Source of the DNA: an uncultured Sphingomonas sp.
GTDB taxonomy: Bacteria; Pseudomonadota; Alphaproteobacteria; Sphingomonadales; Sphingomonadaceae
Direction of reading: 5' to 3'
DNA: 39,849 nucleotides
Assembly: GCA_902806275.1 (NCBI GenBank)
Contig: CADCVY010000107.1
Coordinates: forward strand, 1 to 39,849
Numbering within the stretch: position 1 is the first letter of the stretch; each line of letters opens with the position of its first letter. Positions 13,704-18,526 of the stretch are shown piece by piece. A program made the position numbers and the translations under genes. Under the pieces are notes generated by a model that worked only from the letters and a program-made list of their open reading frames with translations, did no database searches and was not told the origin of the DNA.

Positions 13704-14397
13704 GCCGCCAGTCGGCGCCGCTCCACTCCGCTCCGAACACCCGGTCGGCCTCTCCCGAGGCTTGTAGGTCAGTCGGCCGACCGTCCCACACGATTGCTCC
13801 CTCCGAGATCAGCAACAGCCGGTCGGCATAGCGCACGGCGGTGGTGAGATCGTGGACCGCAAGCACTACTGAGCGCTGGCGCGAAGCAACGCGTTCGCGC
13901 AACATGTCCATGACGACGAGCTGCCAGTAGGGATCAAGGTTTGCCAGCGGCTCGTCGAGCAGGAGAAGCTGCGGATCGCTGGCAAGCAGTCGGCCGAGCA
14001 GCAATCGGGCGCGCTCCCCGCTCGACAGCCGATCGACGCGGCCGTCGAGCAAGGGCTCCAGGGCAAGGGCGGCAACCACCGGCTCGCAATTCCCTTGCTG
14101 CGCCGTGCCGAACGCTAGCAGGTCGCGGCCAGCGATCGGCCACGCGACGTGCCGGTCCGCCGTCAGCAACCCCACCAGGCGTTGCCGCAGGACCGGCGGT
14201 TGGCCGTGGATTGGCGTGCCGCCGACCTCGACGGAGCCGGCTGCGGGCGGCACGCCGGCAAGCGCATGCAGCAGGCTGGTCTTGCCGCTGCCATTGGGCC
14301 CGACGAGGGCGGTCAGCGAGCCGCTGCCAATCTCGAGGTCGGTCGGCTGCAGTCGGCGTTCTGTCCGCAGGCTCCGCCCGCGCGCCAGTGCCATCAT
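13669..14397 (-). CDS. btuD: cobalamin/iron-type ABC transporter ATP-binding protein
   Basis: Cytoplasmic ATPase that drives vitamin B12 import with BtuC. The 242 residues carry Walker [10 protein letters not shown] (33-41), the signature [16 protein letters not shown], Walker B LLLLDEP followed by the D-loop (LANLD), and the H-loop His in [11 protein letters not shown]. The family is the FecE/BtuD branch of importers. The start (two successive ATGs at 14397 and 14394) overlaps the permease stop as ATGA. Assignment to B12 rather than heme or siderophore import rests on the upstream cobalamin riboswitch controlling the operon. The 3' end overlaps fabZ by 35 nt. Confidence 0.88.
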
Positions 14398-15359
14398 GAA
14401 AGCCGCCAGCGCATGCGCGCGACCAGCCAGAGGAAGAAGGGGGCGCCAAGGATCGCGGTCACAACCCCGATCGGCAACGTGCGGCCGAGCGGGGCTGTCC
14501 GCACCGCCAAATCCGCAGCCAGCAGCAACGCCGCCCCGATCACCGCCGCAGGTAGCAGGGCCCGGCCGGCATGGCCGCGCGTCAGCCGCCTGGCGAAAAC
14601 CGGAGCCACCAGGCCGATGAACCCGATCGCACCGCAGATCGCGACGCAGGCACCGACCCCGACCGCGCTCAGCGTCACCACCCACAGGCGGGTCCCGCGC
14701 ACGTCGTGGCCCATGGCCGCTGCGGCATCTTCACCGAAAGTCAGGCTGTCGAGCGCCGGCACCTGACGCAGGAGCAAGGCCGTTGCGGCGATGCTCGGAA
14801 TCAGCGCGAACAACGCCTGGTCGAGGCTGCGGTCGGCCAGCGAGCCCATCAGCCACTCGTAAGCATCGTAAAAGGCGAACGGCGAGGGCGCGAGCGCCAG
14901 GGCCAACGTCGTCAGCGCCCCGGCCAATGCACTGATCGCCAACCCGGCAAGCAGCAGCGTCGCCGTTTCCGCGCGCGGTCCGGCGAGGGCGAGTAGCAGG
15001 ACCAGGGCGCCGAGGGCACCAGCGACTGCGCCGACGGACAGGGCAAGCGGGCTGGCGAAGGCGAGGGTATAAGCGGAGACCACCGCACCCAAAGCGGCGC
15101 CGCTCGTGGTGCCGGTAAGGTCCGGCGAGGCGAGCGGGTTGGCGAACAGGGCCTGGATCGCGGCTCCGCTAGCGCCCAGCATGGCGCCATAGGTGAGCGC
15201 CAGCAGCGCGCGCGGCAGGCGCAGCTGGGCGAGCACCGTCCACGCCAACTGGCGGTCGTCGCCCCACAGCGCCGCAAGGCTGGACCAGGGCAACAGCAGC
15301 GAGGCGGCGAGCAGCATGAGCGTCAGCACCGCCGAGCTTGCCATGCTTGCGCGCCTCAT
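14394..15359 (-). CDS. btuC: cobalamin/iron-type ABC transporter permease
   Basis: Inner-membrane channel of the B12 importer, FecCD/BtuC family. The 321 residues are highly hydrophobic with about nine to ten helices. Recognised blocks are RLPRALLALTYGAMLGASGAAIQALFANPLASPD, characteristic of FecCD permeases at residues 45-80, and the cytoplasmic coupling-helix region GAIGFIGLVAPVFARRLTRGHAGRALLPAAVIGA. The frame is open far upstream, but the ATG at 15359 (MRRASMASS) overlaps the btuF stop as ATGA and gives the usual length. It overlaps btuD by 4 nt. Confidence 0.88.
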   Translation of the reverse strand: MRRASMASSAVLTLMLLAASLLLPWSSLAALWGDDRQLAWTVLAQLRLPRALLALTYGAMLGASGAAIQALFANPLASPDLTGTTSGAALGAVVSAYTLAFASPLALSVGAVAGALGALVLLLALAGPRAETATLLLAGLAISALAGALTTLALALAPSPFAFYDAYEWLMGSLADRSLDQALFALIPSIAATALLLRQVPALDSLTFGEDAAAAMGHDVRGTRLWVVTLSAVGVGACVAICGAIGFIGLVAPVFARRLTRGHAGRALLPAAVIGAALLLAADLAVRTAPLGRTLPIGVVTAILGAPFFLWLVARMRWRLS

Positions 15360-16147
15360 TTGGCAAGCGCCCGCCGCAGGCGCTCGATCTCCGGAATGAG
15401 GGTCGGCCCCATGCACGTCCACGCGCGGCCATCGGTCGCAAGCGTTCGGCCCGCGCGGACGCGCCGCGCGAGCGGGTGCGAAAGCCAGCGCTGCTCGCTC
15501 GAATATTGCCCCTGCCGGTAATTGCTGCGCAGGAGCACGCGCGGCGGCTGCGTCAGCAGCTGCTCCAGCGCGACGCGGTCGCCGCGGACTTGCCTTTGCC
15601 GCAGGCCCGCCAGGCGCATCCATTCGGCTGCCAGGCCGACACCCGAAACCGTGCGGCCGCCGCCGCCGATCCACAGCGTGTCGGTTGGGACCCGGGGCGA
15701 GCTGTGCTTGAGCGCCTCAATTCGAGCGTCGAACGGCTGCGCCGCGGAGGGCCGCCCGAGCGCCTTGGCCACAAGCACCAGATTGCGCTGCACATCGGCG
15801 AGCCGCTGCGGGTAGGGGAGGTCGAGTATCGAAACGCCCAAGCGTCTTGCAATCACCTGACGGTCGCGCACGCCACCGCCCATGGTCAGGATAAGATCCG
15901 GCTTGAGCGGAACCACGCTCAACAGGCTCCCGTCATTGGCGCGGTAGCCGCGAGCGACAGGTGCGAGGCGGGTTTCCTCCGGCTTGTGCGCAAGGTGGGT
16001 CACCGACGCGATCTGCCGCTTGTCGGCGAGCAGCAGCATCATCTCGTCGGTGCACAGATTAAGCGACACCACCCGCCGCGGAGGGCCGGCGGATGCCGTC
16101 GCAGCGCCGAGCAGGCTAAGGCCGGCCAGCCAGGCGAACACCCGCAA
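15356..16147 (-). CDS. btuF: periplasmic B12-binding protein of ABC importer
   Basis: Captures corrinoid in the periplasm and delivers it to BtuCD. The 263 residues begin with a signal peptide (about 1-20, LAGLSLLGAATASAG), then the class III binding-protein fold: PRRVVSLNLCTDEMMLLLADK near 23, VVPLKPDLILTMGG near 80 and a long connecting helix. The start is TTG at 16147: GGGAGAGG lies 5 nt upstream of it, whereas the alternative GTG at 16141 is 11 nt away. The gene begins inside the 3' end of btuB (32-nt overlap). Substrate assignment rests on the riboswitch and neighbours. Confidence 0.85.
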   Translation of the reverse strand: MRVFAWLAGLSLLGAATASAGPPRRVVSLNLCTDEMMLLLADKRQIASVTHLAHKPEETRLAPVARGYRANDGSLLSVVPLKPDLILTMGGGVRDRQVIARRLGVSILDLPYPQRLADVQRNLVLVAKALGRPSAAQPFDARIEALKHSSPRVPTDTLWIGGGGRTVSGVGLAAEWMRLAGLRQRQVRGDRVALEQLLTQPPRVLLRSNYRQGQYSSEQRWLSHPLARRVRAGRTLATDGRAWTCMGPTLIPEIERLRRALAK

Positions 16148-17945
16148 AGATACCTCTCCCTTCGGTGCGGTAGCCGAACACGTCTTGGTGACGGTCGTTC
16201 AGCAAGTTGGACCCGCGGGCGAACAACTCAACGCCGGGACGGAGGGCATAGGCCACCCGCGCGTCCGCCAGCCGGTAGGAGCCGAGCCGGACGACATTGT
16301 ACGGCGGGTTCTCGTTGAGGTCGGTTTGGGCGCCGCTGAAGGCGATGGAGGCGCCGTAGCTCAAGCGGCCGAGCACGCCGTCGGCGGCAATCGCCCCGCT
16401 ATGCTTGGGCCGGCGCAACTCCTTCACCTGCAGCGATCCATCGAAGTTGGGCTGCGTGGCCTTGAGGTAGCTGTAGTTGGCCGTGAGCCGAAGCTGTTCG
16501 CCGATCGCCCAGCCGAGTTCAGCCTCGATCCCCCAGCGGCGGCTTCGATCCCGCCGGTTCTCCGTCGAGGACAGGCCCGAGGCAAAGTCGAACACGTCGA
16601 CGATTTCGTCGCGCAGCCGCTGGCGGAAGCCGGTCAGGGCAGCGGACACGCGACCGCTGCGAAACCGTACAGACCCTTCGAAGCCGCGGGAGCGTTCCGG
16701 CGTAAGTTGCGGATTTCCCTCGAACGTTCCGGGAAAGAAGCCGTAGAGGTCGAAGAAGGTCGGCTGCGCAATCCCTTCGCCGTAGGTCCCGGCTACCGAA
16801 AAACCAGCGCCGACATGAGCGAGCAAGGACGCGCGCAGCGTCGTTGCGTCCTTGAAGCGGTTGAACGCGTCGCGCCGCACAGCGACATCGGCCGTCAGCT
16901 TGTCAAAACGACCGCGCCACTCCGCAGTGATCGCCTGGTGGGTGCGGTCGCGATCCTGAGCGGTGGCGCCGCCGTAGACGGTGTCATTGGCCGCGAACGT
17001 CTCCCGCTCATGCTCGGCGGCGGCGATCAGCAGGTGCTGCACCGGGCCAGTCCGGAAGTGCCGCTCGAGCTGCCCGCTCAACGTCGTCCGCGCGCCGCTT
17101 GTGCGATTGATCTCGTCATCGGCGAAGTAGTTGCGGTTGCGTGAATTGAGCCGCGAAATCTCGATATTGCCCCTCCAGGGCGACTGGTCCTGCCCGACCT
17201 CGACCCAGGCTCGCGCGGCGTTCATCCGGTCACGGCTGACAAGGTCGTGCGTGCGGTCGAACGTGAAGGGATCAAAGCCGTCATACTCGCTCCGCCCATT
17301 GAGCAGAAAACCCGCAGCGCCGACCTCGACCTGATCGTGCACTCTCACCGAGCCGCGCAGCCGTGCGGCGATGTTGCGGTAGCCGTCGCGGTCGCCGCCG
17401 CTGAAGATGTCGATGCCCGAAGCTCGCTGCCAGGCGACGGCGCCTGCCACGCTGGCAATCCCCCCGGCGAGCGACGTACGGGTCAGGCCGAACGAGCCTG
17501 CCTCACCCGAAGCGCGCACCGCTCTACCATCCGCAGGGTCGGCCCCATCGGCCGCAACCACGCCGCCGATCGCCTGCGACCCCCACAATGCCGATTGCGG
17601 CCCGCGCACCACCTCGATGCGCGAGAGGATGTCGGCATTGAGCAGCTCGAAGCGCGGCGCATCGCCACGCGCGGGGTCGTTGGCGCGGATGCCGTCGATG
17701 AACAGCAAGGTGTGGTTGGCTTCCGCCCCTCTGATGCGGACCTCGGCAACCGTTCCTGCGGCACCCGACTGCGTCACGGCAACCGACGGCACCTGGCGAA
17801 GCAGGGCAGGGGCGAGCGGCGTGCCGAGCCGCTCGATGCGCTCGGCGTCCAGCACCGTTGCGCTGGCTGCGGTATGCGCCTGCGTGTCAGGGGCTCGCGA
17901 AGCGGTGATGACGATCTGGTTGGTGTCCACGGGTACGGCGGCCAT
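16116..17945 (-). CDS. btuB: TonB-dependent vitamin B12 receptor, lacking a visible signal peptide
   Basis: Outer-membrane active transporter for corrinoids. The 609 residues contain a TonB-box-like DTNQIVITAS at 8-17, the plug domain to about 130 (TVLDAERIERLGTPLAPALLRQVPSV, EVRIRGAEANHTLLFIDGIRAND, RIEVVRGPQSALWGSQAIGGVV) and a 22-strand barrel whose last strands read GVELFARGSNLLNDRHQDVFGY. BtuB proteins normally have a signal peptide before the TonB box; here Met1 is only about ten residues from it. The ATG at 17945 has a good AAGGA site 6-7 nt upstream, and an in-frame TGA sits two codons before it, so no extension is possible. It lies downstream of a cobalamin riboswitch. Confidence 0.88.
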   Translation of the reverse strand: MAAVPVDTNQIVITASRAPDTQAHTAASATVLDAERIERLGTPLAPALLRQVPSVAVTQSGAAGTVAEVRIRGAEANHTLLFIDGIRANDPARGDAPRFELLNADILSRIEVVRGPQSALWGSQAIGGVVAADGADPADGRAVRASGEAGSFGLTRTSLAGGIASVAGAVAWQRASGIDIFSGGDRDGYRNIAARLRGSVRVHDQVEVGAAGFLLNGRSEYDGFDPFTFDRTHDLVSRDRMNAARAWVEVGQDQSPWRGNIEISRLNSRNRNYFADDEINRTSGARTTLSGQLERHFRTGPVQHLLIAAAEHERETFAANDTVYGGATAQDRDRTHQAITAEWRGRFDKLTADVAVRRDAFNRFKDATTLRASLLAHVGAGFSVAGTYGEGIAQPTFFDLYGFFPGTFEGNPQLTPERSRGFEGSVRFRSGRVSAALTGFRQRLRDEIVDVFDFASGLSSTENRRDRSRRWGIEAELGWAIGEQLRLTANYSYLKATQPNFDGSLQVKELRRPKHSGAIAADGVLGRLSYGASIAFSGAQTDLNENPPYNVVRLGSYRLADARVAYALRPGVELFARGSNLLNDRHQDVFGYRTEGRGIFAGVRLAGRP

Positions 17946-18185: not shown

Positions 18186-18215
18186 TCGCTAGGCGCGGTG
18201 CCGAAACCTTGTCAA
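18186..18215 (-). promoter_or_regulatory. candidate btuB operon promoter
   Basis: On the minus strand a consensus TTGACA (18215-18210) is followed after 18 nt by TAGCGA (18191-18186), placing the start just before the riboswitch aptamer. Its -35 overlaps the -35 of the divergent rpmE promoter. Confidence 0.55.
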
Positions 18216-18237
18216 TCACAGGCCCGTTCGCTAGGGC
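18209..18237 (+). promoter_or_regulatory. candidate rpmE promoter
   Basis: TTGTCA (18209-18214), 17 nt, TAGGGC (18232-18237) in the context GCTAGGGCCGCG, the same layout as the rpsB promoter candidate. The -35 occupies the same bases as the btuB -35 on the other strand. Confidence 0.5.
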
Positions 18238-18295
18238 CGCGCGACACTTGCTGCCGCTGGTCGGAAACCAGCTGCTAACCCAAGGAAATCATGAC

Positions 18296-18526
18296 ATGAA
18301 GTCCGGCATCCACCCCGAATATCACACCATTACCGTCGAAATGACCGACGGCACCAAGTTCCAGACCCGCTCGACGTGGGGCAAGGAGGGCGACACTCTC
18401 CACCTCGACATCGATCCGACCGCCCACCCGGCGTGGACCGGCGGCAACCAGAAGCTGCTGGATACCGGCGGCCAGGTGGCGCGCTTCAACAAGCGGTTTG
18501 GCGGCCTTTCGCTGGGCAAGAAGTAA
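18296..18526 (+). CDS. rpmE: 50S ribosomal protein L31
   Basis: Large-subunit protein near the central protuberance that helps bridge the subunits. The 76 residues begin [19 protein letters not shown] and include [16 protein letters not shown] and [16 protein letters not shown], the alphaproteobacterial L31 pattern. There is no cysteine, so this is the zinc-free (C-minus) form. The frame runs open upstream, but the ATG at 18296 has AAGGAA 8 nt before it and gives the family length. A second ATG at 18291 is out of frame. It is divergent from the B12 operon and followed closely by an acetyltransferase gene. Confidence 0.96.

Follow-up and report, generated by a model that had tools for sequence, protein, structure and literature searches.

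Divergent rpmE and btuB promoters of an uncultured Sphingomonas very probably merge on one palindromic −35 element

In an uncultured Sphingomonas sp., the gene for ribosomal protein L31 (rpmE) and a vitamin B12 uptake operon headed by a btuB-type receptor gene are oriented divergently, and an earlier note on this DNA suggested that their promoters read the same near-palindromic −35 hexamer in opposite directions. The question is whether one hexamer indeed serves two promoters and, if so, whether this couples the two genes. Throughout, the window is the whole analyzed stretch of 39,849 nucleotides. The letters, coordinates, and spacings that the note gave for both strands are exact, and domain matches agree with its assignment of rpmE to the plus strand and of the B12 uptake operon to the minus strand (Table 1); a cobalamin riboswitch and a hairpin resembling L31 leaders went unmentioned there. 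The rpmE and predicted btuB promoters very likely form a compact divergent pair merged on a palindromic −35 element, i.e., two housekeeping-sigma promoters, TTGTCA-17-TAGGGC (rpmE) and TTGACA-18-TAGCGA (btuB), that would be fused at this single element.

Table 1. Features of the rpmE/btuB locus (coordinates of the window)
Feature	Position	Strand	Evidence
Near-palindromic −35 element CTTGTCAA, both directions	18208–18215		Sequence and relatives, most with CTTGTCAAG
rpmE −35, TTGTCA	18209–18214	+	With −10: rank 3 of 79,626
rpmE −10, TAGGGC, 17-nt spacer	18232–18237	+	TAGGGG consensus in relatives
Predicted rpmE transcription start (A)	18244	+	Inferred, 6 bp after −10
rpmE leader hairpin, core CTGGTCGGAAACCAG at 18257–18271	18251–18277	+	Likeness to RF03128, covariation
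rpmE, ribosomal protein L31, 76 aa	18296–18526	+	PF01197, 1.5e-26
btuB −35, TTGACA	18210–18215	−	With −10: rank 1 of 79,626
btuB −10, TAGCGA, 18-nt spacer	18186–18191	−	Same spacing in promoters away from rpmE
Predicted btuB transcription start (A)	18179	−	Inferred, 6 bp after −10
Cobalamin riboswitch aptamer, RF00174	18044–18189	−	69 bits, cut-off 31.5
btuB-type TonB-dependent receptor, first gene behind the riboswitch	16116–17945	−	PF00593, PF07715
btuF-like periplasmic binding protein	15356–16147	−	PF01497, 1.1e-8
btuC-like FecCD permease, ORF start uncertain	14394–15674	−	PF01032, 1.8e-72

Of the three TTGWCAA heptamers in the window, only the shared one is flanked in both directions by a TA-type −10 element at 16–18 nt. 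In windows simulated with a Markov model, such bidirectional sites turn up 0.003 times per window; the site at 18186–18237 is more than expected by chance in the window. A promoter scan with the generic E. coli consensus yields nothing at this site, since each −10 element agrees with TATAAT at just two of six positions. Measured against E. coli, both are weak, and matrices built from relatives were preferred, the −10 elements here not being E. coli-like. The rpmE matrix was derived from 67 promoters of rpmE genes with no riboswitch next to them, the btuB matrix from eight btuB-riboswitch promoters away from rpmE (imperfect solo controls, as in some of them the −35 may in part serve a different divergent gene as well), and all 79,626 window sites were ranked with each. 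With the btuB matrix, the minus-strand site leads the runner-up by 10 bits.

Both promoters combine a TTG-type −35, a spacer of 17–18 nt, and a −10 with A at position 2, and in these features, as well as in lacking T at −7, they show no notable difference from Alphaproteobacterial sigma70 promoters (PMC8407463). More than 80% of sigma70 −10 elements in Novosphingobium lack T at −7 (PMC8407463); its absence is normal for the host group.

The comparison drew on rpmE upstream regions of 61 whole genomes and 80 named genome contigs. The rpmE −35 reads TTGTCAA in 32 of 41 loci with an adjacent divergent cobalamin riboswitch (most confirmed by Rfam, the remainder by sequence pattern) and in none of 66 loci without one, where TTGC(A/C/T)N is usual; the Fisher P of 2e-19 ignores kinship, the loci being related and the counts not independent events. 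Where no riboswitch adjoins, 61 of 67 rpmE promoters carry C at position 4 of the −35, while T at this position and the following CAA go with riboswitch adjacency. Promoters of btuB riboswitches away from rpmE follow TTGAC(A/G)-18-NA in 8 of 9 same-genus loci, mostly as TTGACA-18-NAGCAN. In one genome (G019), with promoters about 66 bp apart, rpmE has TTGCAA and btuB still has TTGACA. The letters of the shared element would hence be a compromise between the mostly TTGC(A/C/T)N hexamer of rpmE alone and the TTGACA of btuB away from rpmE. Three Sphingosinicella-type loci (L066, L068, L073) carry a different palindrome, CTTGCAAG, in this place, with TAAGGC, TATGGC, and TATCCC, respectively, 17 nt away toward btuB and Rfam-confirmed riboswitches; therefore, the element stays palindromic although its letters differ.

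Among 39 distinct sites, all picked because TTGTCAA-16-TA occurs close to the leader, the plus-strand −10 has the consensus TAGGGG, in which T and A are fixed by the search pattern. On the minus strand, 34 of the 39 sites have A at position 2 of the −10, while the neighboring columns vary. The −11A of sigma70 promoters is a critical base, and we take the conserved A to be this one; in many relatives it is all that is kept of the minus −10 (e.g., GACAAG, CACTTC). In 71 genomes of the genus, TA-N17-TTGWCAA-N16-TA is matched 17 times, and 15 of these matches fall at the rpmE/btuB locus. A reversed control pattern has at least as many matches as the double pattern genome-wide, and the bare genome-wide count is uninformative; the informative part is the concentration of 15 out of 17 at one locus. 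Here, one hexamer is correctly placed for both −10 elements and is conserved as such, so the part of the earlier interpretation that postulated two divergent promoters with a common palindromic −35 stands, on the evidence of the relatives.

The poor conservation of the minus −10, save for its single A, could also mean that TTGTCA is used by the rpmE promoter alone, with btuB starting elsewhere and the minus match arising by chance. We consider this quite improbable: at other loci of the genus this riboswitch is preceded by TTGACA-18-NAGC, T at position 4 and CAA track riboswitch adjacency, and the predicted btuB start abuts riboswitch helix P1.

As CTTGTCAAG is a near-perfect 9-bp palindrome, eight positions of which are invariant in the 39 sites (selected for TTGTCAA), it might instead be the operator of a dimeric regulator acting on both genes, its likeness to a −35 being incidental. 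The exact distances of 17 and 18 nt from the conserved −10 bases argue against this, as do two further facts: Sphingosinicella-type loci carry another −35-like palindrome, CTTGCAAG, in its place, and rpmE has TTGCAA where the promoters stand apart. CTTGWCAAG occurs 0–6 times per genome, in one genome (G011) at the rpmE/btuB locus alone, which makes the operator highly improbable. In ten genomes of the genus no sign of a CTTGWCAAG regulon was seen, and the operator of a global transcription factor was dropped as a candidate for lack of a regulon.

The merged arrangement is not universal among relatives. Two genomes (G002, G006) have two adjacent −35 elements instead of one; several same-genus genomes have lost the rpmE/riboswitch adjacency, which most other Sphingomonadaceae sampled also lack. 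In two Sandarakinorhabdus-type loci (L084, L090) the divergent promoters are apparently interleaved with separate −35 elements, TTGACC-18-TAACCC of btuB lying within the rpmE promoter. Four same-genus loci (L006, L009, L010, L011) have a shortened cobalamin riboswitch variant adjoining rpmE; the best match of the first is AdoCbl-II, and the second matches the central part of RF00174 alone.

RNA polymerase covers roughly −55 to +20 of a promoter. With the commonest −10-to-start distance of 6 bp (PMC8407463), the predicted starts A18244 (+) and A18179 (−) are about 65 bp apart, and footprints on the two predicted promoters would overlap by about 45 bp; therefore, one polymerase should exclude the other. 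Moreover, sigma region 4 would dock on the shared −35 in one orientation at once, which would make initiation mutually exclusive. The earlier claim that polymerase could occupy only one direction at a time is, hence, reasonable sterically, given the shared −35 and the start spacing, with exclusion itself predicted from the geometry.

Among the closest known systems are the prokaryotic bidirectional promoters (Warman, Forrest, Stringer, Wade, and Grainger; PMC12825309), where, similar to the pair described here, one symmetric core element is used both ways and bound polymerases would exclude one another. However, those promoters share the −10, with starts within it or to either side, most often at distances of 10, 18, or 23 bp, whereas the window pair shares the −35, has separate outward −10 elements and predicted starts about 65 bp apart, and so does not belong to the shared −10 type. 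A limited literature search, which in itself does not prove absence, found no direct precedent for divergent promoters with a −35 in common.

On the minus side, the aptamer scores well above the RF00174 gathering cut-off and is located upstream of B12 uptake genes. Apart from the promoter shared with rpmE, this is an ordinary case of RF00174 before a btuB operon, with genes for a TonB receptor and BtuF-like and BtuC-like proteins following. The modelled 5′ end of the riboswitch overlaps the minus −10, and the predicted start A18179 is one base ahead of helix P1, in which GGACCA (18178–18173) can pair with UGGUCC (18059–18054). Folding of 250 nt of the riboswitch region did not lead to a worked-out expression platform. 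The N-terminus of the encoded BtuB (start 17945) resembles MPALPIDTxQIVITASR and has no evident signal peptide, as in L005, L028, and L156; BtuB of L012 and L015 seemingly has one.

On the plus side, a conserved, covarying hairpin lies just upstream of rpmE, as is general for L31 leaders, and our hairpin covariance model (R1) matches the window at 18251–18277. Covariation is 0.275 versus 0.141 in shuffled alignments (49 distinct rows), above all 500 shuffles, and three of the six pairs change on both sides; folding of the rpmE leader by itself is uninformative (z −1.2). The L31-Coriobacteria leader RF03128 likewise consists of one hairpin immediately before rpmE, and its core, CUGGUCGGAAACCAG, is almost identical (PMC7247131). 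The window hairpin scores 24.6 bits against this family, under the cut-off of 33, and cannot be assigned to it, while a relative (L005) reaches 33.3 bits. The core CYGG-UCGGAA(A)-CCRG was found upstream of rpmE in 116 loci with 105 distinct sequences (e.g., L005, L010, L064, L096), in practically all Sphingomonadaceae sampled; in 24 genomes representing seven further families of the order, no such core precedes rpmE. A search with R1 over the order and class scores few candidates per genome and under-reports, and was not used for prevalence; among its matches outside the family with fetched loci, none had rpmE nearby. Published L31 leaders come from Actinobacteria, Coriobacteria, Corynebacteriaceae, Firmicutes, and Gammaproteobacteria; Alphaproteobacteria are not among them (PMC7247131). 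The hairpin probably extends L31-type leaders, with putative autoregulation by L31, to Sphingomonadaceae, for which the published list has no entry, although the window copy falls under the Rfam cut-off. A two-codon frame, ATG-ACA-TGA at 18291–18299 (+), overlaps the rpmE start codon.

The hairpin model also matches apparent 23S rRNA, with core CTGGTCGGAAACCAG, in two genomes from other families of the same class (L174, L176); at the same place, 23S rRNA of Sphingomonadaceae has ACGGTTGGAAACCGT or close variants. Rfam classes three such 23S loci as LSU rRNA. The leader hairpin is similar to one in domain V of 23S rRNA (L174, L176, L186, L189), and the matching helix is presumably H84, judging by the E. 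coli structure. L5 contacts H84 (PMC10531944), and L31 contacts 5S rRNA and L5 (PMC7247131). Mimicry of rRNA by the L31-type leader is possible, a lead from sequence likeness rather than a result.

These two RNA elements bear on the second half of the question, since the earlier note also proposed that simple competition ties the output of ribosomal protein to B12 uptake. In such a switch, occupancy in one direction lowers the other, inversely coupling the two. The common −35 and starts about 65 bp apart would indeed make occupancy exclusive, and at E. coli bidirectional promoters strong activation one way can repress the other; yet five E. coli bidirectional promoters that were tested had basal activity too low to compete (PMC12825309), no activator site is known at the rpmE/btuB locus, and adjacency is missing in several relatives. 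Furthermore, the riboswitch acts on RNA already being made, and therefore B12 status should not alter promoter occupancy. Such coupling is accordingly doubtful, and the proposed link is unsupported: the riboswitch acts after initiation, rpmE has its own hairpin, and several same-genus genomes lack the adjacency. It is similarly unlikely that the palindromic −35 is a polymerase-orientation switch, in which strong rpmE firing during fast growth starves btuB initiation and the reverse happens in slow growth. If this were so, both RNA leaders would act on top of the initiation ratio, and the pair would stand for a conserved class of bidirectional promoters whose common element is the −35 and not the −10.

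In the preferred reading of two promoters merged on one −35, control would be mostly after initiation, by the cobalamin riboswitch on the btuB transcript (as its family membership suggests) and, on the rpmE transcript, by the L31-leader-type hairpin, which from its resemblance to known leaders probably controls translation. Selection on both promoters, and not a B12-to-ribosome signal, would keep the layout compact. The locus is a natural case, recurring in related species, of two promoters co-evolved on one hexamer, palindromic while the genes are adjacent and with an ordinary TTGC-type rpmE −35 where they are apart; this makes it a clean system for asking if competition between polymerases at a −35 used in common affects regulation.

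Elsewhere in the window, the best rpmE-type promoter match is TTGCCT-17-TAAGGC at 1031 (−). Another compact divergent pair is seen at 972–1075, between isocitrate-dehydrogenase-like (−) and phosphatidylserine-decarboxylase-like (+) genes, both named by eye.
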